NCBI RefSeq assembly: GCF_024102715.1
Contig: NZ_JAGFJM010000123.1
Location: forward strand, 1 to 46,532
From: Nitrosomonas communis
GTDB taxonomy: Bacteria > Pseudomonadota > Gammaproteobacteria > Burkholderiales > Nitrosomonadaceae
Length of the DNA: 46,532 nucleotides
Direction: 5' to 3'
Positions 10,037-31,297 of this stretch are shown piece after piece (positions within the stretch are counted from its first letter, which is position 1; every line of letters begins with the position of its first letter). The notes under the pieces were generated by a model. It was given only the letters and a program-made list of their open reading frames with translations. It was not told the origin of the DNA and did no database searches. The translations under genes were made by a program, and so were the position numbers.

Positions 10037-12832
10037 ATGGAACAACTAGAAGACGAGATTCTTAACTACTGGGGTAAGGCAGATCCTAATTATCCAGGTG
10101 AACAAAAGTGGCATCCACTTGTTTATCATTGTCTTGATGTGGCGGCAGTGGGGTTGGAATATTTAAATCAAGAAACTATTTTTTGTGATTGGATCTGCAC
10201 TCAGTTACAGTGTGATCACACTGATGGAAAACAGTGGGTTGCATTCTGGTTGTCACTGCATGATTTAGGAAAATTCAGCGAAGCTTTTCAATCACAAAAA
10301 CCTGAACTATTTGAAGCATTGCAAGGAAGGAAACCTGATCCGGCAAAATCCTATACGGAACGTCATGATTCTCTAGGACAGTGGTTATGGCGTGACTATC
10401 TTGCTGACCGCGCTGTTGAGGATGGCTGGTTTGGCAGTTCGACTGAATCTCGAATGACGGGTCTCGATAGTTGGATGAGAGCTGTCACAGGACATCATGG
10501 CCAGCCACCAAAAACTTTCCCTACTTTTTGTGATATTGGTGACTATTACTCAAAGCGTGACAAGAAAGCCGTGCTCGCGTTTATCAATGGCATGCGTGAA
10601 CTTCTACTGCCGCAGTCGGCGGAAACGTTATTTATCGTACTTGATTCAGTCAAATTTGAGCATGTCAGTCAGGCTTTGTCATGGTGGCTTGCTGGTATTG
10701 CCGTATTGGCTGATTGGCTTGGTTCCAATACCGGTTATTTTCCCTATCAAGAGACAGATATGTCACTAGAGAAATACTGGCAACATGCGTGTCAGCGGGC
10801 AAAGAAAGCATTGAAAGATAGTGGTGTAACGTCACAAAAAATTATTGCAAGTTATACCTTCACCGATCTCTTCAAGAATAAGAATATTTCGACCCCATCA
10901 CCCTTACAACAATGGGCAATAGATACGGAAATATCTGGGGAACCGCAAATATTTTTACTGGAAGACGTAACAGGGGCGGGCAAGACAGAGGCTGCCCTAA
11001 TGCTTGCTTACCGTTTGATGGCAAAGGGTGCGGCTCAAGGTTTTTTCATAGCTTTGCCCACCATGGCCACTTCTAACGCAATGTATGATCGCGCGGCTCA
11101 TTTTTACCAAAAATTGTTTGCCGGTAATGCTAATTTGGTCCTGGCGCATGGCAATCGCCAGTTGGTGGAAAATTTTGCGAAATCAGTTTTGCCATCTTCC
11201 GGTGTAGAAGATGATCTTGAGCAACAGGATGAAACTGCATCGGCGCGCTGTACGGCCTGGCTGGCTGACCATAACAAGCGTGCGTTATTGTCCCAAGCTG
11301 GTGTTGGTACCATCGATCAAGCCTTGCTTAGCGTGCTACACAGCAAACATCAATCACTACGGTTGCTTGGTTTATTCAATAAGGTGTTGATCGTGGATGA
11401 AGTTCATGCTTGCGATGCCTATATGCAAGGCATATTGGAGGTACTGCTTGAATTTCACGCGCGAGCTGGCGGTAGTGTGATTCTGTTGTCGGCAACCCTA
11501 CCATCACGCATGAAACAAGCACTCTTGGATGCTTATGCCAAAGGGCGCAACAATTTATGCCAAACTATCCGACAAAACTTGCCATATCCACTGGCCACCA
11601 CTTGGCATGCCGTATGTACCCAGCCAATTGAGAATGCTTTGGGTACGCGCGATGCAGTAAAGCGCACAGTTACTATTGATTACCAACATCAGCAATCCAA
11701 AGTTGTCGCGATGATCAATGATGCCTTAGCCTCCGGTCAGTGCGTCTGCTGGATTCGCAATACCGTAACGGATGCCACGGAAGCTTTTGCGTTATTTTCT
11801 GAATGCTTACCCCAAGAGAAATTGACTCTGTTTCATGCCCGCTTTGCTTTGGACGACAGGCTGATGAAAGAAAGTGACGTAACTACTACCTTTGGTCCTG
11901 ATAGTGATGCAAGCAAACGCTCAGGTCGTTTGGTGATTGCTACCCAAGTAATCGAGCAATCACTAGATGTGGATTTTGATTTACTAGTTAGTGATTTGGC
12001 TCCAATTGATCGCTTAATCCAAAGAGCTGGACGTTTACGACGGCATAATCGTGATGCATCCGGCAATCGTTTGGCAAATGGCGAACCGGATCAACGGGGC
12101 ATGCCGCTTATGGTGGTATTTGGTCCTGCTTGGAGCGCCGAACCAGCAGTACATTGGTTCAAGACCGCTTTCCCAAAGGCTGCGGGGGTTTATCCCCATC
12201 ACGCGCAATTGTGGCTAACGGCCAAAGCCTTGCAGGTTGGCAAGTTTACTATGCCAGAAGATGCTCGTGCCTTAATTGAAGGAGTATTTGGCGAATCGTC
12301 GAGTATTCCTCAAGGATTGCAACAAAATAATCTGACTGTGCAAGGGCAGCAGATGGCTGAAGCTAGTCATGCGAAGAGTAATGCTCTAAATTTTGCGAAT
12401 GGTTATAAACGTGGGGACGTGATGGATTGGTGGAGCGAAGCCAAAACGCCGTCGCGTTTGGGCGATGTGAGTGTCAATGTAGTGTTAGCTCGTTGGGGAA
12501 GCGGACAACTCTTGCCATGGGCAGAACGTCCAAATCACGCTTGGGCTTACAGCACGGTACGGGTGGCTGAGCGTTTGCTTGCCAGTGTTCCACAGCCTGA
12601 TGATAGCGTTCAACAGAAAGAATTTTTGCGCGTCAAAGATCAGCTCCCGAGCAAAGGCAAGTGGTCGATTTTGTTGGTGTTAGAACAAACCAAAAACGGG
12701 TGCTGGCAAGCACAGGCATGGAGTGGAGAAATTCCGGGGCAAGCAGCACAGCTGCAGTTGTGGAAATATGATGGCAAGATGGGGCTGCGATTGGCAGCAG
12801 ATGAAAAATCTATTATCGAGGAGACTGAATGA
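10037..12832 (+). CDS. cas3: CRISPR-associated helicase/nuclease Cas3 (type I-E)
   Basis: 931 residues: an N-terminal HD nuclease followed by an SF2 helicase. HD residues include H26, H31 and the HD pair H75-D76 (LHDLGKF). Helicase motifs are Walker A TGAGKTE (312-318), the DEVH box (454-457), the SATLP motif, and the C-terminal RAGRLRRH. Cas3 is recruited by target-bound Cascade and unwinds and degrades the non-target strand. Its stop overlaps the cas8e start by four bases (ATGA). All catalytic motifs look intact. No strong ribosome site precedes ATG 10037. Confidence 0.97.
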   Translation: MEQLEDEILNYWGKADPNYPGEQKWHPLVYHCLDVAAVGLEYLNQETIFCDWICTQLQCDHTDGKQWVAFWLSLHDLGKFSEAFQSQKPELFEALQGRKPDPAKSYTERHDSLGQWLWRDYLADRAVEDGWFGSSTESRMTGLDSWMRAVTGHHGQPPKTFPTFCDIGDYYSKRDKKAVLAFINGMRELLLPQSAETLFIVLDSVKFEHVSQALSWWLAGIAVLADWLGSNTGYFPYQETDMSLEKYWQHACQRAKKALKDSGVTSQKIIASYTFTDLFKNKNISTPSPLQQWAIDTEISGEPQIFLLEDVTGAGKTEAALMLAYRLMAKGAAQGFFIALPTMATSNAMYDRAAHFYQKLFAGNANLVLAHGNRQLVENFAKSVLPSSGVEDDLEQQDETASARCTAWLADHNKRALLSQAGVGTIDQALLSVLHSKHQSLRLLGLFNKVLIVDEVHACDAYMQGILEVLLEFHARAGGSVILLSATLPSRMKQALLDAYAKGRNNLCQTIRQNLPYPLATTWHAVCTQPIENALGTRDAVKRTVTIDYQHQQSKVVAMINDALASGQCVCWIRNTVTDATEAFALFSECLPQEKLTLFHARFALDDRLMKESDVTTTFGPDSDASKRSGRLVIATQVIEQSLDVDFDLLVSDLAPIDRLIQRAGRLRRHNRDASGNRLANGEPDQRGMPLMVVFGPAWSAEPAVHWFKTAFPKAAGVYPHHAQLWLTAKALQVGKFTMPEDARALIEGVFGESSSIPQGLQQNNLTVQGQQMAEASHAKSNALNFANGYKRGDVMDWWSEAKTPSRLGDVSVNVVLARWGSGQLLPWAERPNHAWAYSTVRVAERLLASVPQPDDSVQQKEFLRVKDQLPSKGKWSILLVLEQTKNGCWQAQAWSGEIPGQAAQLQLWKYDGKMGLRLAADEKSIIEETE

Positions 12833-14460
12833 ATCTGCTGGATGAAGCTTGGATACCTGTGCGCCGCAAGGACGGTGTTCAGGATTGGATTGCACCTTGC
12901 CAGATCGGCGAGCCGGATATTGTTGCGCTGGATGCTAGGCGGCCAGATTTTAACGGTGCGTTAGTTCAGTTTTTGATCGGCTTGGTACAGACTACCACAC
13001 CCATGAACAGCCATGCCGAATGGCAACAGTGGTATGACGAGCCACCTTCAGCTGAAGTCCTGAAACATTGGTTTACGCCAATAGAAAGTGCCTTTGTATT
13101 CGATGGTGATGGTGCGCGGTTTATGCAGGATTACAGTTTGCACACGGCCGGGATGCAAAACTCAGAATTCAATGAGATTGGTTCGCTCTTAATCGAAGCG
13201 CCGGGTGATAACACGCTCAAGGAAAACAAAGATCATTTCATCAAGCGTGGATTAGCTTCTGGCCTGTGTCCTCATTGTGCCGAGACGGCGCTTTTTACCC
13301 TGCAAACAAATGCACCAAGCGGTGGAAACGGACACTTTACTTCACTTCGAGGTGGAGGCCCATTGACAACATTGATTGTTGCGACACCTACACGTTCGCT
13401 TTGGCATACGATATGGCTGAATGTGCGTGACCGCGATTCTTTTCTGGGGACCGGCGGCGACGCTAACAAGACAGCGCTGCATTTTACTTTCCCTTGGCTG
13501 GCTGACATGCAATCTATACAGGCTGCGGGAGGAAAAACCGTTCCTATTCAAGTTCATCCTGCCCATGTGTTCTGGAGTATGCCTCGCAGAATTCGGCTCG
13601 ATCAGGACAATACAGTCAGTGGCCGTTGCGATACCTGTGGTCGTGAATCTGCGAAGTTATTGACCCGCTACATTACAAGACCAAAAGGATTTAATTACAA
13701 AGGCGCATGGAGGCATCCTTTGTCGCCATACTATGAAAGCAAGCCTGAAGAATGGCTACCTATGCATCCACAACCGGGTGGATTGGGCTACAAGCTCTGG
13801 TTGGGCTGGGTTCTTGGAGTGCAGGGGGACAAGAAAAAAACTCAACCCGCTTCACAGGTTTCATATGTACTGGATAGTAGAAGACTCAAAGGGCAATTCA
13901 GGTTATGGGTCTTCGGCTATGACATGGAAAACATGAAAGCTCGCTGCTGGTATGAATCCACCTTCCCTCTGTATGGTTTGGCAGAACGTAATGTGGAAGA
14001 ACGCAAGCTCGTTCAATCCGAAGTAGCTAAATGGATAGATGCGGCTGACCATGCCGCATTTCTGTTACGTACTGCCGTTAGGTCAGCTTGGTTCAGCGAT
14101 AGCTCGGAAGCTAAAGGTGATTGGGGGTTTGTTGATGCTGCTTTCTGGTCGAGAACTGAATCGGGATTTTATGGATTGTTGAGCGAACTCATCGAGCAGG
14201 CGCGAGATGAAGATGGTGATTCAAGCTTGACTCCTTGGCGTGAACGTTGGCGCAATAAATTGATTGATGCAGCAGTAAAACTGTTTGATGCCGAATTGGT
14301 AGGTATAGCCCTCGTCGAGCGACAAAACCCTCGTCGTGTGGCTGATGCACACAACCGGCTACGTGCAAGTTTGTACGGTGATAAGCTTAAAGTAATTCTG
14401 AGATTACCGGTTGAGAAACCAAGCAAGTTAACGAAAAAGAACGCCAAAGTATCGGCCTGA
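12829..14460 (+). CDS. cas8e: Cascade large subunit Cas8e (Cse1/CasA)
   Basis: 543 residues, somewhat longer than E. coli CasA (about 500). It starts MNLLDEAWIPVRRKDG, the characteristic Cse1 N-terminus (NLL...WIPV). Cse1 recognises the PAM, starts target unwinding and recruits Cas3. Two CxxC pairs, C147/C150 (CPHC) and C267/C270 (CDTC), suggest a zinc site. The four-base overlap with cas3 and the 19-base gap to cse2 place it in one transcript. Confidence 0.95.
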   Translation: MNLLDEAWIPVRRKDGVQDWIAPCQIGEPDIVALDARRPDFNGALVQFLIGLVQTTTPMNSHAEWQQWYDEPPSAEVLKHWFTPIESAFVFDGDGARFMQDYSLHTAGMQNSEFNEIGSLLIEAPGDNTLKENKDHFIKRGLASGLCPHCAETALFTLQTNAPSGGNGHFTSLRGGGPLTTLIVATPTRSLWHTIWLNVRDRDSFLGTGGDANKTALHFTFPWLADMQSIQAAGGKTVPIQVHPAHVFWSMPRRIRLDQDNTVSGRCDTCGRESAKLLTRYITRPKGFNYKGAWRHPLSPYYESKPEEWLPMHPQPGGLGYKLWLGWVLGVQGDKKKTQPASQVSYVLDSRRLKGQFRLWVFGYDMENMKARCWYESTFPLYGLAERNVEERKLVQSEVAKWIDAADHAAFLLRTAVRSAWFSDSSEAKGDWGFVDAAFWSRTESGFYGLLSELIEQARDEDGDSSLTPWRERWRNKLIDAAVKLFDAELVGIALVERQNPRRVADAHNRLRASLYGDKLKVILRLPVEKPSKLTKKNAKVSA

Positions 14461-14479
14461 ACCCAAAGGAGAAAATAGT

Positions 14480-14992
14480 ATGAATGACAAAATTTCTTTT
14501 CATCCTGAAACTGCTCTCGGACAAGTTTTACTGCGATGGTGGGAGGGGTTGGAGAATAATCGGGGAGATCGTGCCGAGTTGCGTCGCGCCCATAATTTGA
14601 CAGCGATCGTACTTACGGGGGGGTATCAGCATCTTTATCAAATGCTGTTAGCGACTGGCTGGCCGAAAGAGGATAAACCGGAAAACAATTGGCGAAATGA
14701 GCGACTCGCTGCTATTGCTGGCTTGCTTGCGCATGTAAAAGTTCAGGATGAACGAAGCTTGCCATTAGCTATGTCCGAAGGAGAGCGTCCGCCATTTTCA
14801 GAATTACGTTTTCGGCGTTTGCTAGATTCATCTTCGTTAGATGAGGTGTTCGGCGGTTTGCGCCGGGCGTTGCCATTAGTTTCCTATCAGGCCAATGTAC
14901 TGGAATTGGCTAATGACGTGCTGCTCTGGAGCGATAACGTGAAGAAACGTTGGGCCTATACCTATCGCTGGCCCGCCAAATCGGCGGTTTAA
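14480..14992 (+). CDS. cse2: Cascade small subunit Cse2 (CasB)
   Basis: 170 residues, typical of Cse2, a helical protein present in two copies that stabilises the R-loop. Recognisable features are the early LLRWWEGL...RGDRAELRRAHN pattern and PFSELRFRRLLDSSSLDEVFGGLRRALP. A good AAAGGAG ribosome site precedes ATG 14480. It lies between cas8e and cas7, the standard I-E order. Confidence 0.93.
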   Translation: MNDKISFHPETALGQVLLRWWEGLENNRGDRAELRRAHNLTAIVLTGGYQHLYQMLLATGWPKEDKPENNWRNERLAAIAGLLAHVKVQDERSLPLAMSEGERPPFSELRFRRLLDSSSLDEVFGGLRRALPLVSYQANVLELANDVLLWSDNVKKRWAYTYRWPAKSAV

Positions 14993-15023
14993 ATTTCATT
15001 TTTTTAAAATAATGGAGAATACA

Positions 15024-16079
15024 ATGTCACGTTTTGTTCAGATTCACCTGCTCGTCAGCTATCCGCCTTCCAACCTCAACCGCGACGATACGGGGCGACC
15101 AAAAACAGCTATTGTTGGCGATGCCAGTCGTTTGCGGATTTCTTCCCAAAGTCTTAAGCGTGCATGGCGAACATCTGATGTTTTTGAAAATACGCTCCAA
15201 GGGCATATTGGCATCAGAACTAAGGAAATGGGTGAAAAAATTTATCATGCGCTTCTTGAAAAAAAGGTATCTGAAAAGAATGCTCGCGAGTGGGCAAAGA
15301 CGACTGCCGGTCAGTTTGGTAAATTGAAATCTGACAAAAAAACTGAAAATAATCAGGACTTGCATATTGAGCAGTTGGCGCACTTCGGTCCCGAAGAGGA
15401 AGCTGCCATAATGTTGCTGGTGGATAAGCTGGCTACATCGGGTGCAGCTCCCACAGAAGATGACTTAAAACTGTTGAGAAAGCCACGCCAGGCAGCGGAC
15501 ATTGCCATGTTTGGCCGTATGTTGGCATCGTCCCCAGCTTTTAACGTCGAGGCCGCTGTGCAGGTGGCACATGCCATTACCATTCACAAGGTGGCCGTGG
15601 AAGATGATTATTTTATCGCGGTTGATGACCTTAACCGAGGTGAAGAAGATGTGGGTGCTGCCCATATTGGCGAAGCCGGTTTCGGTGCCGGAGTTTTTTA
15701 TCTCTATTTGTGTATCAATCGCGAGCTTTTGTTTGAGAATCTTGGTGGCGATACCGCATTGGCAGCCAAAACATTGGAAGCACTGGTGCATGCGACCACC
15801 AAAGTTTCACCAACCGGGAAACAGAACAGCTTTGCCTCACGCGCTTATGCCGCTTATGCACTTGCTGAAAAAGGTGATCAGCAACCACGATCGCTGGCGC
15901 AGGCGTTTCTCAAACCAGTAACGGGTGGAGATATGCTGGAACGGGCCGTCAACGAGTTAACCAAGCGCTACAAAAATTTTGACGCTGTTTATGGAGCCTG
16001 CGCCGATAACCGTTACCAATTCAATGTGGAAACAGGTGAAGGTAGTGTGGATGAGTTAGTGAAGTTTGTAACGGAATAA
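15024..16079 (+). CDS. cas7: Cascade backbone subunit Cas7 (Cse4/CasC)
   Basis: 351 residues from ATG 15024. I prefer this start over the in-frame ATG at 15012 because GGAG at 15014-15017 would serve as its ribosome site and the family usually begins M..F(I/V)Q(I/L)HLL.SYPPSNLNRDD, as here. Cas7 polymerises along the crRNA as six copies. Conserved GRPKTA and RISSQSLKRAWR follow at once. The gene lies 31 bases after cse2 and 5 bases before cas5. Confidence 0.95.
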   Translation: MSRFVQIHLLVSYPPSNLNRDDTGRPKTAIVGDASRLRISSQSLKRAWRTSDVFENTLQGHIGIRTKEMGEKIYHALLEKKVSEKNAREWAKTTAGQFGKLKSDKKTENNQDLHIEQLAHFGPEEEAAIMLLVDKLATSGAAPTEDDLKLLRKPRQAADIAMFGRMLASSPAFNVEAAVQVAHAITIHKVAVEDDYFIAVDDLNRGEEDVGAAHIGEAGFGAGVFYLYLCINRELLFENLGGDTALAAKTLEALVHATTKVSPTGKQNSFASRAYAAYALAEKGDQQPRSLAQAFLKPVTGGDMLERAVNELTKRYKNFDAVYGACADNRYQFNVETGEGSVDELVKFVTE

Positions 16080-16084
16080 TAACC

Positions 16085-16813
16085 ATGAACTATCTGGTCT
16101 TTCAGTTACAGGCACCATTCTCTGCTTGGGGTGAAACCGCCGTCGGTGAGTTTCGCCCTACGGCAAATTACCCCAGTGAATCGGCTTTGTTGGGATTACT
16201 GGCGGCAGCACTAGGCATGCGTAGAGAAGAGGAAGATGCACATGCTGCTTTGCACAGAGGTTATAGCTTTGCTATCGGTGTGCTGGCGTCAGGTTGTTTG
16301 CTGCGCGATTACCACACAGCGCAGGTACCTGGACGAGTCTCGCTAAAGAATCTCCCGCACAACTCCCGGCGTGACGAACTCAACTTGCCCAAAATAGATC
16401 TCAATACCATCCTTTCCACTCGCGATTATCGGCAGGGTGCCGCGAATATGATTGCCGTCCAGGCGCATGACGGTGCACCTTATGCCTTAGATGATTTGGC
16501 ACAAGTGCTTGCGAAACCCCGTTTTACTCTCTATCTCGGGCGCAAAGCTTGCCCACCGGCATTGCCACTTAATCCACAAATAATTGCGGCAGAAAACTCG
16601 CACACCGCTTTGTATAATTACCGCCAGGAACTTGTCAAACGTAGTGGCGAAACGATTCCTGAATTTGAGCGCATAGTTTGGGGTGAAGGAATTGAATCCG
16701 GCACGATTCATGATCTGGAAGTCGTGCGCAAGGATCGTGTACTGTCGCGGGAACATTGGCAATTTGGTGATCGGATTGAATACGTAGCCTTAAAGCCGCA
16801 AGGAGGGCAATAA
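16085..16813 (+). CDS. cas5: Cascade subunit Cas5e (CasD)
   Basis: 242 residues. The N-terminal LVFQLQAPFSAWGE and PTANYPSESALLGLLAAALG are typical of Cas5e, which caps the 5' handle of the crRNA. A later TILSTRDYRQ motif is also common in the family. It begins 5 bases after the cas7 stop, with cas6e following one base after its own stop, so translation is probably coupled. Confidence 0.95.
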   Translation: MNYLVFQLQAPFSAWGETAVGEFRPTANYPSESALLGLLAAALGMRREEEDAHAALHRGYSFAIGVLASGCLLRDYHTAQVPGRVSLKNLPHNSRRDELNLPKIDLNTILSTRDYRQGAANMIAVQAHDGAPYALDDLAQVLAKPRFTLYLGRKACPPALPLNPQIIAAENSHTALYNYRQELVKRSGETIPEFERIVWGEGIESGTIHDLEVVRKDRVLSREHWQFGDRIEYVALKPQGGQ

Positions 16814-16814
16814 T

Positions 16815-17546
16815 ATGTATTTCAGTCTTATCACTCCCATGCCCGGTGCTGAGCGCGAAGCTGCCATGCAGTGGGCTAAAAATCCCTATGACGATCACCA
16901 GTGGTTGTGGCGATTTTTGGCGGCAGAGCCAGGTACTGCACGGGATTTTCTTTTTCGTCGACGCGATGGTGAAGGCAGGATGCCTGGTTTTTACGTGGTA
17001 TCAGCGCGTAAGCCGCAATCGTTCTCCGGTGCTTGGCAGGTGCAAATCCGTGATTACGATCCACAACTGCAAGAAGGGCAGCGACTGGCTTTCGAGTTAA
17101 GAGCTAATCCGGTTGTGACGCATAAGGTAAATGGAAAATCACGTCGAGATGATGTGGTAATGCATGAGAAAAAACGTTTACTGGCAGAACGAGGAATTAA
17201 ATGCTGGGCGGATTGGCCTGATATGGATAAGACTAAGCCCCCTTTATATGAATTGATTCAGACAACTTGTTTACACTGGTTAGAACGTCGTGGAGAAAAA
17301 GCCGGATTTTCCATCCTGACTCGTGAGTTACATGATAAGGATCGTAGTATTCTTACAGAGAAATCTGTGCGAGTTGATGGTTATATCCAACATCGTAGTG
17401 GACGTAAAGATATTCATTTTTCTACTGTAGATTTTGCTGGTGAACTGATAGTTACTGATACATCGGCATTTCGTAAAATTTTGCTGAATGGTATCGGTCC
17501 AGCCAAAGCCTTCGGATGCGGCCTGTTGCTGGTGCGCAGGCTATGA
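16815..17546 (+). CDS. cas6e: crRNA-processing endoribonuclease Cas6e (CasE/Cse3)
   Basis: 243 residues. Cas6e cuts the repeat hairpin and stays bound to the 3' handle. H28 in PYDDHQWLWRFLA matches the catalytic histidine region of the family, and the C-terminal glycine-rich motif GIGPAKAFGCGLLLVRR is the RNA-binding loop. AAGGAGG at the end of cas5 serves as ribosome site. It ends the Cascade block; a gap of about 43 bases then leads to the toxin-antitoxin pair. Confidence 0.95.
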   Translation: MYFSLITPMPGAEREAAMQWAKNPYDDHQWLWRFLAAEPGTARDFLFRRRDGEGRMPGFYVVSARKPQSFSGAWQVQIRDYDPQLQEGQRLAFELRANPVVTHKVNGKSRRDDVVMHEKKRLLAERGIKCWADWPDMDKTKPPLYELIQTTCLHWLERRGEKAGFSILTRELHDKDRSILTEKSVRVDGYIQHRSGRKDIHFSTVDFAGELIVTDTSAFRKILLNGIGPAKAFGCGLLLVRRL

Positions 17547-17589
17547 ATTTTATCCTTAAACTAGAAAGTATGGATCAGAGGAGATGATG

Positions 17590-17826
17590 ATGGACTGGAA
17601 AGATCATATTATAACTGACTCCAATGTGCTCGTAGGCAAGCCTATAGTAAAAGGAACACGATTGTCCGTCGAGTTTCTGTTAGGTCTTAAAGCAGCAGGC
17701 TGGTCAGATGAGCAAATTCTTGAAAACTACCCGCAATTAACGGCAGAAGATTTGCAAGCAGTATTTGCTTTTGCTGGTGCGCTTGTTAAAGATGAAGAAT
17801 TTTTGCCGTTGGAGATGGTCCCTTGA
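17590..17826 (+). CDS. DUF433 antitoxin-like protein inside the cas operon
   Basis: About 78 residues. Three consecutive in-frame ATGs occur at 17584, 17587 and 17590. I choose the last because GAGGAG at 17578-17583 is then correctly spaced. The motif ITDSNVLVGKPIVKGTRLSVEFLLGL...WSDEQILENYPQLT is diagnostic of DUF433, a winged-HTH-like family that pairs with DUF5615 PIN-like proteins as an antitoxin. The stop TGA overlaps the TTG start of the partner. It lies between cas6e and cas1, so it probably shares the cas transcript. Confidence 0.9.
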   Translation: MDWKDHIITDSNVLVGKPIVKGTRLSVEFLLGLKAAGWSDEQILENYPQLTAEDLQAVFAFAGALVKDEEFLPLEMVP

Positions 17827-18191
17827 GCCTGCTGTTGCTGGCAAACGAGAATATTCCGTTTACTTCGATTAAGGAGCTTAGATCTGAGGGGTTTGATATT
17901 CTTGCAATTGCCGAGAGCTACCGTGGTGAAAGTGATCGCAAGGTTTTATCAGTTTGTGCCGATGAACAAAGAATTCTGATCACTTTCGATAGAGACTATG
18001 GGGAGCTTATTTTTAGAGAAAAAATGCCTATTCCGCCAGCAGTCATTTATTTGCGTTTTATACCCGCCACCCCAACAGAATCCGCCAATATTCTTAGAAG
18101 CTTTTTAATGACTGAAACAGCACGACTGTTGGGTCGCTATTGGGTAATTACACGAAGCGGCATCCGTTCCAGAAAATTACTATCTAAGTGA
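17823..18191 (+). CDS. DUF5615 PIN-like toxin inside the cas operon
   Basis: 122 residues from TTG 17823, overlapping the DUF433 stop as TTGA. It starts MSLLLLANENIPFTSIKELRSEGFD, the DUF5615 pattern, with ITFDRDYGELIF as the second acidic motif. The family is a PIN-domain relative and the predicted nuclease toxin of DUF433 pairs. The first acidic position reads ANEN rather than the common ADEN, which could weaken metal binding but also occurs as a subfamily variant. cas1 starts six bases after the stop. Toxicity is inferred from the family. Confidence 0.87.
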   Translation: MSLLLLANENIPFTSIKELRSEGFDILAIAESYRGESDRKVLSVCADEQRILITFDRDYGELIFREKMPIPPAVIYLRFIPATPTESANILRSFLMTETARLLGRYWVITRSGIRSRKLLSK

Positions 18192-18197
18192 CATACT

Positions 18198-19395
<1,198 letters not shown>

Positions 19396-19455
19396 AAATT
19401 TGGTAGAATTTTACCTTGCCTTTTATCGCTGACTAATCAGCGAGATAGGAGAAGT
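19396..19455 (+). promoter_or_regulatory. Leader of the type I-E array
   Basis: Sixty bases between cas2 and the first repeat. The first half is AT-rich with a short inverted element around TTTGGTAGAATTTTACC. The second half carries a perfect palindrome, CGCTGA-CTAA-TCAGCG. The segment 19415-19452 recurs without change at 24289-24326. No exact IHF consensus was found, although AATCAGCGAGATA is a partial match. New spacers should enter at this end. Confidence 0.75.
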
Positions 19456-21925
19456 GTGTTCCCCACGCCCGTGGGGATGAACCGTTGAACCCCGAAACTG
19501 CGCCTGCCCGGTGATCGTGTTCCCCACGCCCGTGGGGATGAACCGTCGATAACTGCATTGTAGTCAGCATTTGTATAGTGTTCCCCACGCCCGTGGGGAT
19601 GAACCGGATTGATGGTGCACCAGTCGAAACAGGTTAGAGTGTTCCCCACGCCCGTGGGGATGAACCGAAATGGCAGAACAAAGAAGGGGTTGATCATTAG
19701 TGTTCCCCACGCCCGTGGGGATGAACCGCCACGATCAAAAAGCCGATTTGGATAGGCAACGTGTTCCCCACGCCCGTGGGGATGAACCGGTACGGCACAC
19801 GGTCCAGTTCTTCTTTCCTGAGTGTTCCCCACGCCCGTGGGGATGAACCGACGCTTTGGCGCTTTAAAGCTAACTATCCAGTGTGTTCCCCACGCCCGTG
19901 GGGATGAACCGAATTAATACCAGCTACAACATTCACTAACTTAGTGTTCCCCACGCCCGTGGGGATGAACCGCTTGCTTGCTTCATATCATATAAGGTTT
20001 AAATGTGTTCCCCACGCCCGTGGGGATGAACCGCAACAGTAGTCCGAAGGGTAGGATAGGGCTTGGTGTTCCCCACGCCCGTGGGGATGAACCAGATGCG
20101 CTCAGAAGAGAAGGCAGAAGCTGAAAGTGTTCCCCACGCCCGTGGGGATGAACCGGTACCTGCCTTCTGGTGATCAGGTGGCAAGTTGTGTTCCCCACGC
20201 CCGTGGGGATGAACCGGAGCCGTGAAAAATGGGAAAAAGTTTGACAGAGTGTTCCCCACGCCCGTGGGGATGAACCGTTCAATGTGTATGTATTTACCAT
20301 TAACGCGGCGTGTTCCCCACGCCCGTGGGGATGAACCGCGTGTACTGGCCAGATAACACTCCTGAGCAAAGTGTTCCCCACGCCCGTGGGGATGAACCGG
20401 CGAGTATGCATACGATGCTGCGCCTTTGTCCGTGTTCCCCACGCCCGTGGGGATGAACCGTATTGATGCTGTTACCGATCGGGGAAATCGGCGTGTTCCC
20501 CACGCCCGTGGGGATGAACCGTCAGAGTACGTGGCAAATCTGAATCAGCGACGGTGTTCCCCACGCCCGTGGGGATGAACCGGTACCACGGCGGTCATTA
20601 GCAGTGGGGCTTCAGTGTTCCCCACGCCCGTGGGGATGAACCGAAAATCCAGACAAATCTGGACAACATTTCTAGAGTGTTCCCCACGCCCGTGGGGATG
20701 AACCGGTGTATTGAAATCGGTTTGGGATTCAAAAGGCGTGTTCCCCACGCCCGTGGGGATGAACCGCCCTAGCGTAAATTGCGCGCTGGTATTCGCCGGT
20801 GTTCCCCACGCCCGTGGGGATGAACCGCATCACAACGAACAACACGTCAGGGAGGGAGTGTGTTCCCCACGCCCGTGGGGATGAACCGTCATTATTCCAC
20901 GTGAGATTCAGGTACATTTCGTGTTCCCCACGCCCGTGGGGATGAACCGCCCCGCGTATATGCATCGATCGCGCCGTCTTCGTGTTCCCCACGCCCGTGG
21001 GGATGAACCGTCCCATTAGTACCGTCACTATTGTATACGCCAGTGTTCCCCACGCCCGTGGGGATGAACCGAGGAGGATGGAGATGAAAATATCAGAGAT
21101 TTTGTGTTCCCCACGCCCGTGGGGATGAACCGCGATAGCTCATCTGCGGATACATTAACACTAGGTGTTCCCCACGCCCTTGGGGATGAACCGCGTCGAA
21201 ACTTTCGAGTTTCTATTAGATTTGAGTGTTCCCCACGCCCGTGGGGATGAACCGCCAAATTATTTTTTGCAATAATCATGCAGGGAGTGTTCCCCACGCC
21301 CGTGGGGATGAACCGGCACCACTGCGGTCATTAGCAGCGGTGCCTCAGTGTTCCCCACGCCCGTGGGGATGAACCGACACCCGCTGCTGGTAATCGGTGG
21401 CGTGGCCAGTGTTCCCCACGCCCGTGGGGATGAACCGCGCCACGGCGTTTACGAGTCGTATGTGCGTAAGTGTTCCCCACGCCCGTGGGGATGAACCGTT
21501 CAATCCAGGTGTTTTCCCAGGAGGTGTACAGTGTTCCCCACGCCCGTGGGGATGAACCGAGTCTTATAGATGCTATTGCCGCTAGTTACGAGTGTTCCCC
21601 ACGCCCGTGGGGATGAACCGTATTTTATCGAGCCGGGCCATCATCGGCATGTGTGTTCCCCACGCCCGTGGGGATGAACCGCCTTTGATCGGGCTATCGG
21701 TGCGGAATACCGCGTGTTCCCCACGCCCGTGGGGATGAACCCAGATGATTACTGTGGGATTTACCAGAATGAAAGTGTTCCCCACGCCCGTGGGGATGAA
21801 CCGATTGAGCCGTGACTTGAACAGACCAGTGCCGTGTGTTCCCCACGCCCGTGGGGATGAACCGCAGAATTCAATGTAATAATCTTCCCTATTGCAGTGT
21901 TCCCCACGCCCGTGGGGATGAACCG
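19456..21925 (+). CRISPR. Type I-E CRISPR array, 41 repeats and 40 spacers
   Basis: The 29-base repeat begins GTGTTCCCCACGCCC and ends GTGGGGATGAACCG, with a CCCCAC/GTGGGG stem typical of I-E. The period is 61 throughout, with 32-base spacers, except one 33-base spacer at 20644-20676. Nearly all repeats are identical. Exceptions are a final A instead of G in the repeat starting 20066, a G-to-T change at 21180 in the repeat starting 21165, and a final C in the repeat starting 21714. The leader lies on the cas2 side. All spacers differ, but those at 20583-20614 and 21316-21347 are related (see findings). Confidence 0.99.
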
Positions 21926-22040: not shown

Positions 22041-22077
22041 AATATAGTGGTTTTGTAATGATATGTGAGGCATGACT

Positions 22078-22494
22078 ATGGCAAAATCGGCATCCCCCAT
22101 TCGGTTGCAAGAAGAGCTGATGAAAGCGGCAGAGCTGACTGCTGACCGTTTTCATCGCAGCACCGCCGAACAGATAGAGTTTTGGGCGGAGCTCGGGCGT
22201 TCTGTGGCTGATACGCTTGATCCTGATGTGATGTTATCCGTCAAGTCGGGGCTTTCAAGAATAAAAGTGGAACCCGTCTATGGCATTCCAGTCGATCCGG
22301 CTGAAGTTTTTAAAACACTTGAGAACGACCGGAAAAACGGATCGCTGTCCGGGCGTGTTACATCCGCAGCGATCCGCTATCAGGCTTCATCAAAACATCC
22401 GGGGTATCTGGAGCGTATTGATCAGCAAGGCAATATCACTACCGGCCGTTTTCAGAACGGCCAGTTTATTCCATTGAATGAAAGCGTCACTTGA
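22078..22494 (+). CDS. ParD-like antitoxin paired with a zeta toxin
   Basis: 138 residues from ATG 22078, chosen because GAGG at 22067-22070 is then seven bases upstream; ATG 22072 is too close to it. The N-terminal half, IRLQEELMKAAELTADRFHRSTAEQIEFWAELGR, resembles the ParD-like antitoxin family whose members precede zeta-type ATPases. The C-terminal half (PGYLERIDQQGNITTGRFQNGQFIPL) looks like a compact beta domain. The stop overlaps the toxin start as TTGA. It probably binds its own promoter palindrome. Confidence 0.82.
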   Translation: MAKSASPIRLQEELMKAAELTADRFHRSTAEQIEFWAELGRSVADTLDPDVMLSVKSGLSRIKVEPVYGIPVDPAEVFKTLENDRKNGSLSGRVTSAAIRYQASSKHPGYLERIDQQGNITTGRFQNGQFIPLNESVT

Positions 22495-23075
22495 GAAAAG
22501 AAAAACAACTCTGGCTGCTTGCGGGCGGCAACGGCGCCGGAAAAACCACGTTTTACCGGCTGCAACTTAAACCGCTCGGTATGCCTTTTGTGAATGCGGA
22601 TATCCTGGCGAAGCAGTTACATCCGGATCAATCCGAGCAATACAGCTATGAAGCCGCTAAAATTGCCGAAGCCATTCGTTTGCGGCTATTACAGGACGGA
22701 CGCACATTCTGTTTTGAAACCGTTTTTTCTCATCACTCTAAAATCGATTTTGTTGCCAATGCAAAAGTGCTGGGTTATGAAATTGTGTTGGTCTTTATTC
22801 ACCTTGAACAGACACAACTCAACCTCGCGCGTATTGCGCAGCGGATGAGCGAAGGCGGCCACGCTGTGCCGGATGAAAAAGTTAAAGCGCGAATACCCAG
22901 AGTATTGCAATTGGTTAAGCAGGTTTTACCGCTATGTGATCAAGCATACATCCTGGACAACTCTCGGGCGGATAGCCCGTTTCAGCAAATAGCGGTGATA
23001 CGCGACGGATGTCTTGAGTTAAAGCAAGTATCGATTCCAGAATGGTGTGAGGAATTGCTGTCAGATTATCTGTGA
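22491..23075 (+). CDS. Zeta-family toxin (P-loop kinase)
   Basis: 194 residues from TTG 22491. Walker A GGNGAGKTT is at residues 12-20. FVNADILAKQL, CFETVFSHHSKIDFV and RIAQRMSEGGHAVPDEKVKARIPR match zeta toxins and related kinases; the last region is the lid. Zeta toxins phosphorylate UDP-N-acetylglucosamine or related nucleotide sugars and block wall synthesis, although the substrate of this branch is not known. The gene lies between the I-E array and the I-F leader. Confidence 0.88.
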   Translation: MRKEKQLWLLAGGNGAGKTTFYRLQLKPLGMPFVNADILAKQLHPDQSEQYSYEAAKIAEAIRLRLLQDGRTFCFETVFSHHSKIDFVANAKVLGYEIVLVFIHLEQTQLNLARIAQRMSEGGHAVPDEKVKARIPRVLQLVKQVLPLCDQAYILDNSRADSPFQQIAVIRDGCLELKQVSIPEWCEELLSDYL

Positions 23076-23212: not shown

Positions 23213-23780
23213 GTTCGCTGCCGCACAGGCAGCTTAGAAAATGGGAAGAAGAACGTGATTATATTGACGACGGTTCGCTGCCGCACAGGCAGCTTAGAAA
23301 TAACGGCGCAGAAAAAATTATTAAATTAGGAAGTTCGCTGCCGCACAGGCAGCTTAGAAACCTTCCATTCGCTTTCGGGCGCATCATGCATGGTTCGCTG
23401 CCGCACAGGCAGCTTAGAAAGATCGCCGCCGGAATCACCGGTAGCGAAATCCGTTCGCTGCCGCACAGGCAGCTTAGAAAGTGAGGTTGACGAGTTCCGG
23501 CCTGTTTACGGTGTTCGCTGCCGCACAGGCAGCTTAGAAAGTTGACAACGCCAGGTAGTCGAGCTGGCTGGAGTTCGCTGCCGCACAGGCAGCTTAGAAA
23601 TTGAATGTCAAGCGCCCGGCTGTTAACAATAAGTTCGCTGCCGCACAGGCAGCTTAGAAATCAACAAGGATGCAGCGGATCGCCGATTGATCGTTCGCTG
23701 CCGCACAGGCAGCTTAGAAATCCACGATATCCATGTCATGCGTCAACCGCGCGTTCGCTGCCGCACAGGCAGCTTAGAAA
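23213..23780 (+). CRISPR. Type I-F CRISPR array, 10 repeats and 9 spacers, no cas genes nearby
   Basis: The 28-base repeat begins GTTCGCTGCCGCACAGG and ends CAGCTTAGAAA, the I-F pattern with a CTGCCG..CGGCAG-like stem. The period is exactly 60 (32-base spacers), and all ten repeats are identical, including the distal one. No cas1, cas2-3, cas8f, cas5f, cas7f or cas6f gene is in the window. The array should depend on I-F proteins encoded elsewhere, or be an orphan. It ends directly against a truncated DUF1016 gene. Confidence 0.98.
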
Positions 23781-24288: not shown

Positions 24289-24357
24289 CTTGCCTTTTAT
24301 CGCTGACTAATCAGCGAGATAGGAGAGATGTGTTCCCCACGCCCGTGGGGATGAACC
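24289..24357 (+). CRISPR. Solitary type I-E leader end plus one repeat
   Basis: Bases 24289-24326 repeat 19415-19452 of the I-E leader without a mismatch, including the CGCTGACTAATCAGCG palindrome. After three bases (GAT region, AGT in the main leader) a repeat follows at 24330-24357, identical over 28 bases, with T instead of the final G. No second repeat follows. The orientation equals that of the main array. The sequence after it is phage-like and not an obvious spacer. Confidence 0.9.
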
Positions 24358-30172: not shown

Positions 30173-30889
30173 TCAGAGTTTATCGGTTGCTATCTCCAGC
30201 CAGGCAATTCCTGCCTCTTTCTCAACGACGATATGCTGTGCCTCAAGCCGGTAGGTTAGCTGGCAATAGTGGCGTGGGTTGGATAAAACAGTGGGATTGA
30301 ACACTGCATAGTTTTCTCCATCCTGATAGCGTGCTGACGATATGAGCAGGCCTGGATGGCCCTCACGGTGAATGCGCGCGCCGATCGATTGCGTGAAGGA
30401 ATAGTCCGTCTTGTGTATCAGATCTGGAAATTGTTCATGAGCCACCAGCCGGAAATCCAGTAAGGCAGCGTTGCATGCGACTGAATAGAGCTTGCGCTCA
30501 CTGAGGACCATTTCCCGTTCAAAACCGGCATCGCTGAGCAAACCCCGGTACCAGTGATAGGCAGACTCGAAAACTGTCGTCTGTACCGAATCACATCCAT
30601 ACCACACACCAAATGAGCCATCCGAAAAACGGCTGGCTTGCCAATGCTTGAATGGCCAGCTAATGGCATTGAACCATTCCGCTTCCTCAAAGGGACGATG
30701 AATTACCGGCGTGTGCGATCGATATGGCGGTGGCTTGATCTCGTCTTCAACGCGCTGAGCGAGCAACCATTCCTCCGCACTCTCAGTCAGGTCGTCAAAT
30801 AAATCCTGGGATTTTCTGAGTGAGACGATATTGCGCATTACATCCCGGTGAACGTCTGCCAGGGTGAGGCATGAGAATAACTGATTCAT
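30173..30889 (-). CDS. RES-domain toxin
   Basis: 238 residues. RES residues are visible: R87 in [16 protein letters not shown]108 in TTVFESAYH, and a serine near LSNPRHY. RES toxins of the MbcT/ParT kind bind NAD+ and degrade it or use it to modify targets. The gene follows the Xre-type antitoxin by about 12 bases, as in known pairs. A minus-strand start at 30889 reads [20 protein letters not shown]. Confidence 0.9.
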
Positions 30890-30901
30890 CCGGTCTGGCT
30901 G

Positions 30902-31297
30902 TCAGACACCACGTGCTCGATCCAGGTATGACCGCACCATTAATAAACCAGCAAAGCCCCATTCTTTGATGACATCCACCGGGGTGAGGTTGTCAAACGC
31001 CTTGTTGCGGGTCGACATCCAGCGGTATGCCAGCTCCCGGTTTTGCGGGAACAGCAAGCGCAGGTTTTTGTGGATACCCAGCAAGTGACCCACGCGTTCG
31101 TATTGATCGCGGTTGGTACCGATGGGTTCACCCTTGCGATAGCGGGTTAGCGCCGCCCGGTTACTGGGCGCAATCCCCAACAATGCTGCTTGATCCTCGG
31201 TTGACAGTTTCCAGTGGTCAAGCAGTGTCATCACCATCCTGGCCAAGGCGCTGCGATCCTGTGTCGTCGTAGCCTGATGCTCAAGCGCAACACTCAT
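30902..31297 (-). CDS. Xre/MbcA/ParS-type antitoxin
   Basis: 131 residues. The HTH region ([20 protein letters not shown]) is followed by the DUF2384 domain, with [28 protein letters not shown] typical of the antitoxin C-terminus that binds the RES toxin. AAGGAGAAGAAAG upstream provides the ribosome site. It is the first gene of the pair, and probable autoregulation is supported by the inverted repeat at 31356-31371. Confidence 0.9.

Follow-up and report, generated by a model that had tools for sequence, protein, structure and literature searches.

In hot-spring mats, Heidelberg et al. 2009 (PMC2612747) describe protospacer variants of a viral lysozyme-like gene that range down to 70% nucleotide identity, with encoded peptides 75-100% identical and with silent or conservative changes, in a natural virus population. 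For a cyanophage, a tabulation of protospacers gives 22 polymorphic sites, of which 13 are synonymous and 7 are not (PMC6129581). Independent acquisitions at a single site are known from a priming experiment with the type I-C system of Legionella, which reportedly used one target plasmid, so that its captures came without divergence (PMC5071653).

The type I-E array described here holds a pair of spacers, numbers 19 and 31, that shares features with both kinds of system. As in the mats, the two would be variants of a coding protospacer that preserve all or most of the peptide, their differences lying mainly at synonymous sites; however, the mat variants (PMC2612747) were virome reads set against one spacer and belonged to a lysozyme-like gene, whereas here both variants are spacers of one array. 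As in the Legionella experiment, one site appears to have been used independently more than once, but spacers 19 and 31 have diverged. The pair is a clear example of a process already known; a narrow search of titles and opening abstract lines in the open-licence literature, which is no basis for claiming absence, brought up no description of one array that contains two silent variants.

The type I-E locus and its array

The window, that is, the whole stretch of 46,532 nucleotides that was analysed, comes from a genome of 3.05 Mb in 144 contigs. A subunit of ammonia/methane monooxygenase is encoded in this genome (PF02461, E 2.4e-115), consistent with the ammonia oxidiser named in the preliminary description. 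The genes from cas3 to cas2 form one cluster (10037-19395), and all eight type I-E proteins score above the curated Pfam cut-offs (Table 1). With a full gene set and with repeat and spacer lengths that fit, the locus is a complete type I-E CRISPR-Cas system. The Cas2 domain covers residues 51-136 of the longest cas2 open frame, so the true start of this gene probably lies further in. Between cas6e and cas1 (17584-18191) are two small genes, an 80-residue frame, presumably DUF433, and a 122-residue DUF5615 protein; together they resemble a toxin-antitoxin module of the DUF433/DUF5615 type that has been inserted into the cas operon.

Table 1. Features of the type I-E locus, in window coordinates
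Feature	Coordinates	Strand	Remarks
cas3 (Cas3_HD + helicase)	10037..12832	+	Pfam
cse1/cas8e	12829..14460	+	Pfam
cse2/cas11	14480..14992	+	Pfam
cas7 (Cas_CT1975)	15012..16079	+	Pfam
cas5	16085..16813	+	Pfam
cas6e (CRISPR_assoc)	16815..17546	+	Pfam
cas1	18198..19118	+	Pfam
cas2 (longest open frame)	18949..19395	+	Pfam
Leader end	19415..19455	+	41 bases before the first repeat
Type I-E array	19456..21924	+	41 repeats (GTGTTCCCCACGCCCGTGGGGATGAACC, 28 bases), 40 spacers
Spacer 19, younger of the pair	20583..20614	+	captured G at 20582
Sole non-consensus repeat	21165..21192	+	one base differs; separates spacers 28 and 29
Spacer 31, older of the pair	21316..21347	+	captured G at 21315

The repeat was delimited at 28 bases and the G after it was assigned to the captured DNA, which leaves spacers of 32 bases, or 33 with the G. 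Counted with the captured base, 39 of the 40 spacers are 33 bases long and one is 34; repeats of 28 bases and spacers of 33 lie within the lengths by which type I-E is recognized (28-29 and 32-33). The first base after the 28-base repeat is G in 38 of the 40 spacers, with A and C in the other two, and the same captured G is present in three sister arrays (67 of 69, 25 of 25 and 32 of 34 spacers). An AAG PAM is known from the type I-E system of E. coli, and a G in 38 of 40 spacers is as expected if the captured base is the last base of an AAG-like PAM.

The 41 bases preceding the first repeat recur at 24289-24329, and together with the repeat that follows there (24289-24357) the match is 97% over 69 bases. 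Their recurrence before a lone repeat marks them as the leader end; therefore spacer 1 is the youngest of the array and spacer 31 predates spacer 19. At 24289-24357 itself, this second leader end is followed by one perfect type I-E repeat and then by no spacer array, apparently a lone-repeat remnant or an unused second array.

Sequence comparison of spacers 19 and 31

Re-parsing of the array bore out the boundaries and 32-base lengths that had been given for the two spacers, and alignment confirmed that they share 27 of 32 positions (28 of 33 with the captured G), the five differences lying in a single codon phase. The alignment is ungapped and in the same register, and the next-best spacer pair is 16/24 when all pairs of the 40 spacers are compared in both orientations at offsets of up to 12. 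The differences between spacer 19 and spacer 31 are T/C at position 2, G/T at 8, T/C at 23, G/T at 26 and T/C at 29, amounting to three transitions and two transversions. The probability that five random positions fall in one codon phase is 0.0058, and in simulations of five random substitutions at least one open frame kept its peptide in 0.31-0.50% of cases, a range set by transition bias and by which of the two spacers is mutated. The neighbouring spacers (18 and 30 on one side, 20 and 32 on the other) do not occur among the like pairs of the array. The preliminary description placed twelve spacers between the two and the acquisitions apart in time; the order of the array relative to the leader side (19415-19455) upholds the separation in time, but the spacers in between number 11 (spacers 20-30), twelve being the number of repeats.

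Read on the plus strand with the captured G, each spacer comprises 11 codons in an open frame that specifies the same peptide in both. The minus strand is also open and specifies the same 10-residue peptide in both spacers, while in the other four frames the peptide changes from one spacer to the other, and three of these four contain stops. All five differences are thus synonymous on either strand, and random mutation yields synonymy in two frames at once in 0.01-0.03% of cases. The earlier statement that every difference is synonymous in the matching frame, which gave the plus reading alone, holds for the plus frame (5 of 5 silent), except that the frame is not unique, the minus frame being equally open and silent. 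The codon usage of 12 window genes favours the minus strand by 1.9-2.4 natural-log units over ten codons, which would tilt the choice slightly towards that strand, although an edge of this size does not settle the choice, and the usage of the host need not hold for the source. From the silent pattern it is a fair inference that the source gene would be under purifying selection.

Origin of the pair

Spacers 19 and 31 are probably separate captures of the same protospacer from diverged homologous coding copies on invading DNA. Points against this reading are that five differences make a small sample, that the searches found no protospacer, that the three sister arrays show no second such pair among their top-scoring pairs, and that the silent pattern from which a single coding sequence is deduced fits both strands. 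Independent acquisition from two diverged copies, as put forward in the preliminary description, is nevertheless the best-supported reading, and duplication within the array followed by mutation fits badly. The two spacers would have been captured on two occasions at the same protospacer, each from its own copy of a protein-coding sequence, the copies being homologous yet diverged and most likely carried by two related phages. These copies would have kept the encoded peptide and differed at third codon positions only. Spacer 31 would have been acquired before spacer 19 from the putative phage source; mismatches at positions 2 and 8, in the PAM-proximal seed, would make the older guide less effective on the later variant, and the re-capture would have restored immunity, possibly with the help of priming.

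A rival origin is that one repeat-spacer unit was duplicated inside the array and then point-mutated. Duplication does occur in such arrays: sister genome G075 (L088), which has the same repeat, contains three duplicated spacer pairs (21/29, 66/68 and 67/69). These resemble the present pair in that two like spacers stand in one array, but all three are exact copies without changes, whereas spacers 19 and 31 have diverged at silent positions only. Point mutation after duplication would pay no regard to codon phase or to synonymy, for which the probabilities are given above. The repeats of the array are nearly free of mutation, with 1 of 1,148 bases off consensus, compared with five differences in 2 x 32 spacer bases (Fisher p 2e-6, or 3.5e-4 if only 13 repeats are used, the 12 between the two spacers and one beside), although this comparison is rough, each insertion copying the repeat anew. 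Because the repeats are near-constant, the spacers adjoining 19 and 31 were not co-duplicated and the differences lie in one codon phase, duplication with subsequent mutation is a very improbable origin of the pair.

Two further features of the sister arrays may be recorded. The pairs 66/68 and 67/69 of G075 look like a single tandem duplication of two units at the old end of the array. In G079 (L089), spacers 4 and 6 share an inverted overlap of 18 of 20 bases with two adjacent mismatches, and apparently derive from related DNA, on which the two protospacers would overlap on opposite strands. Among the top-scoring pairs of the three sister arrays, which hold 128 further spacers, there is no other diverged pair in the same register.

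With two separate captures as the preferred origin, the question arises why the same site was used twice. The preliminary description took the pair to imply that acquisition repeatedly chose this site, but a preference does not follow, since a birthday calculation makes chance a plausible account if many spacers come from one phage group. With a 45-kb group as the source of all 40 spacers, a PAM every 64 bases on each strand (about 1,400 sites) and uniform choice, the expectation is 0.56 same-site pairs, so that no site preference is needed for two captures at one site; for the same 40 spacers it ranges over 0.13-1.25 when genome size is varied from 20 to 100 kb and the PAM frequency is set at 1/64 or 1/32. 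The expectation falls to about 0.14 if 20 spacers derive from the same 45-kb group and to 0.032 if ten do, and the chance account presupposes that a good part of the array is aimed at one phage group.

The seed of a type I-E guide is its PAM-proximal region, where mismatches hurt most. Two of the differences, those at positions 2 and 8, fall in this region, which would suit a site chosen by priming from an older, mismatched guide or by being a hot spot, rather than by coincidence. Such non-random choice has a parallel in the type I-C experiment, where one protospacer is reported to have been captured independently twice among 23 (PMC5071653). It is not needed, given the number of same-site pairs that chance provides, and is considered unlikely here, although it is compatible with two separate captures, so that its odds and theirs are not additive. 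Mutations in the seed can block interference while priming may still occur, according to PMC12871591. A more specific version, in which spacer 31 was weakened by silent escape changes (two of them in the seed) and primed the re-capture of the site from the escaped lineage, is less likely still. If it were true, the array would contain both an outdated guide and its refreshed counterpart, and their order would document how the phage evolved.

If captured separately, the two spacers amount to an alignment of two invader lineages obtained from one host genome, without any phage genome, to which the array adds a time order and a sign of coding constraint. Many such pairs could calibrate phage divergence against array growth and could test re-capture at escaped sites against coincidence; a single pair illustrates these uses and does not establish them.

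Protospacer searches and neighbouring elements

A degenerate pattern for the full peptide had 0 matches in IMG/VR, and neither a fixed-core pattern nor a pattern for the reverse-strand peptide had any. Wobble-only patterns had 0 matches in IMG/VR and 0 in the genome collection, and a pattern allowing up to 3 mismatches found nothing in 125 genomes of the family and 399 of the order beyond the two spacers themselves. By blastn, spacer 19 matched three phage records and one plasmid record and spacer 31, searched against phages only, matched seven records, all of them partially (17-23 bases) and with E of at least 1. Two of these matches were read in context, one in Pantoea phage AAM37 and one in Pseudomonas phage Nican01; the annotated gene at each runs in a different frame, and both matches are therefore attributed to chance. 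Spacers 27 and 32 had no match in phages at E 1.

Four loosened patterns retrieved 5, 7, 11 and 13 stretches, L032 and L034 being in both of the last two sets, and none of the stretches preserves the eleven-residue plus-strand peptide in full. In the 12 loci of the first two sets, the longer open frame is on the minus strand in nine (three of five viral loci and six of seven genome loci) and on the plus strand in three (L014, L016 and L024); in those nine, the motif APLL(I/M)TAV of the minus reading lies within the longer open frame. The loosened matches thus do not favour the plus strand. When ten frames were run against Pfam, one exceeded the cut-off (L022 minus, a PrsW protease), one fell below it (L013) and eight had no match, and the minus-reading loci compared (L013 and L017-L023, with L015 left out) have no family in common. 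L024, on an Acidobacteria contig, has a plus frame of 408 residues without a Pfam family and resembles the spacers at 24-25 of 33 bases.

The loci retrieved by the plus reading are a mixture in which L014 and L016 are repeat-rich, L032 and L034 encode capsid proteins, others such as L028 and L098 stand apart and several have short frames; the frames of L025, L029, L033, L096 and L097 look tail-fibre-like to judge from their sequences. This mixture bears on whether a single invader could have supplied both spacers from two copies, either repeat units within one repeat-rich structural gene or paralogous genes. Such a source requires one invader only, and on the plus reading, should that be the coding one, the peptide is similar to repeat-rich structural proteins of phages: TAVISSGAV occurs in frame within the long, visibly repeat-bearing open frames of the IMG/VR loci L014 and L016, and TTAVI(S/T) occurs in the tail-fibre-like frames of L025, L033 and L096. 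However, no candidate protein was seen to contain the same 11 residues twice, Pfam assigns L016 to no family, the searches found no protospacer and the minus strand is equally open. Two copies in one invader are accordingly judged improbable as the source, and two related invaders are preferred.

The frames of L032 and L034 belong to the family SU10_MCP (E 2.6e-81 and 1.3e-82) and carry the segment GTTAVITSGAP. An SU10-type major capsid gene was considered as the target, but in 16 aligned sequences this segment is a loop variable in both length and sequence, and the identification was dropped for that reason. Of the 125 genomes of the family, none had an SU10 capsid match above the family cut-off, and 6 had weak matches under it. 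A phage structural protein would be a fair guess for the target only on condition that the plus strand is the coding one.

Downstream of the type I-E array lies a second array of 10 repeats (23213-23780), the repeat of which is found nowhere else in the genome at up to 3 mismatches and presumably belongs to type I-F, which it resembles. No type I-F cas genes were found among the 20 window proteins run against Pfam, and its 9 spacers share nothing above noise with the 40 type I-E spacers. Between both arrays (22072-23075), a ParD-like antitoxin gene adjoins that of a zeta-toxin/AAA_33 P-loop kinase, and a RES-domain/Xre-MbcA-ParS toxin-antitoxin pair is encoded on the minus strand at 30173-31297.
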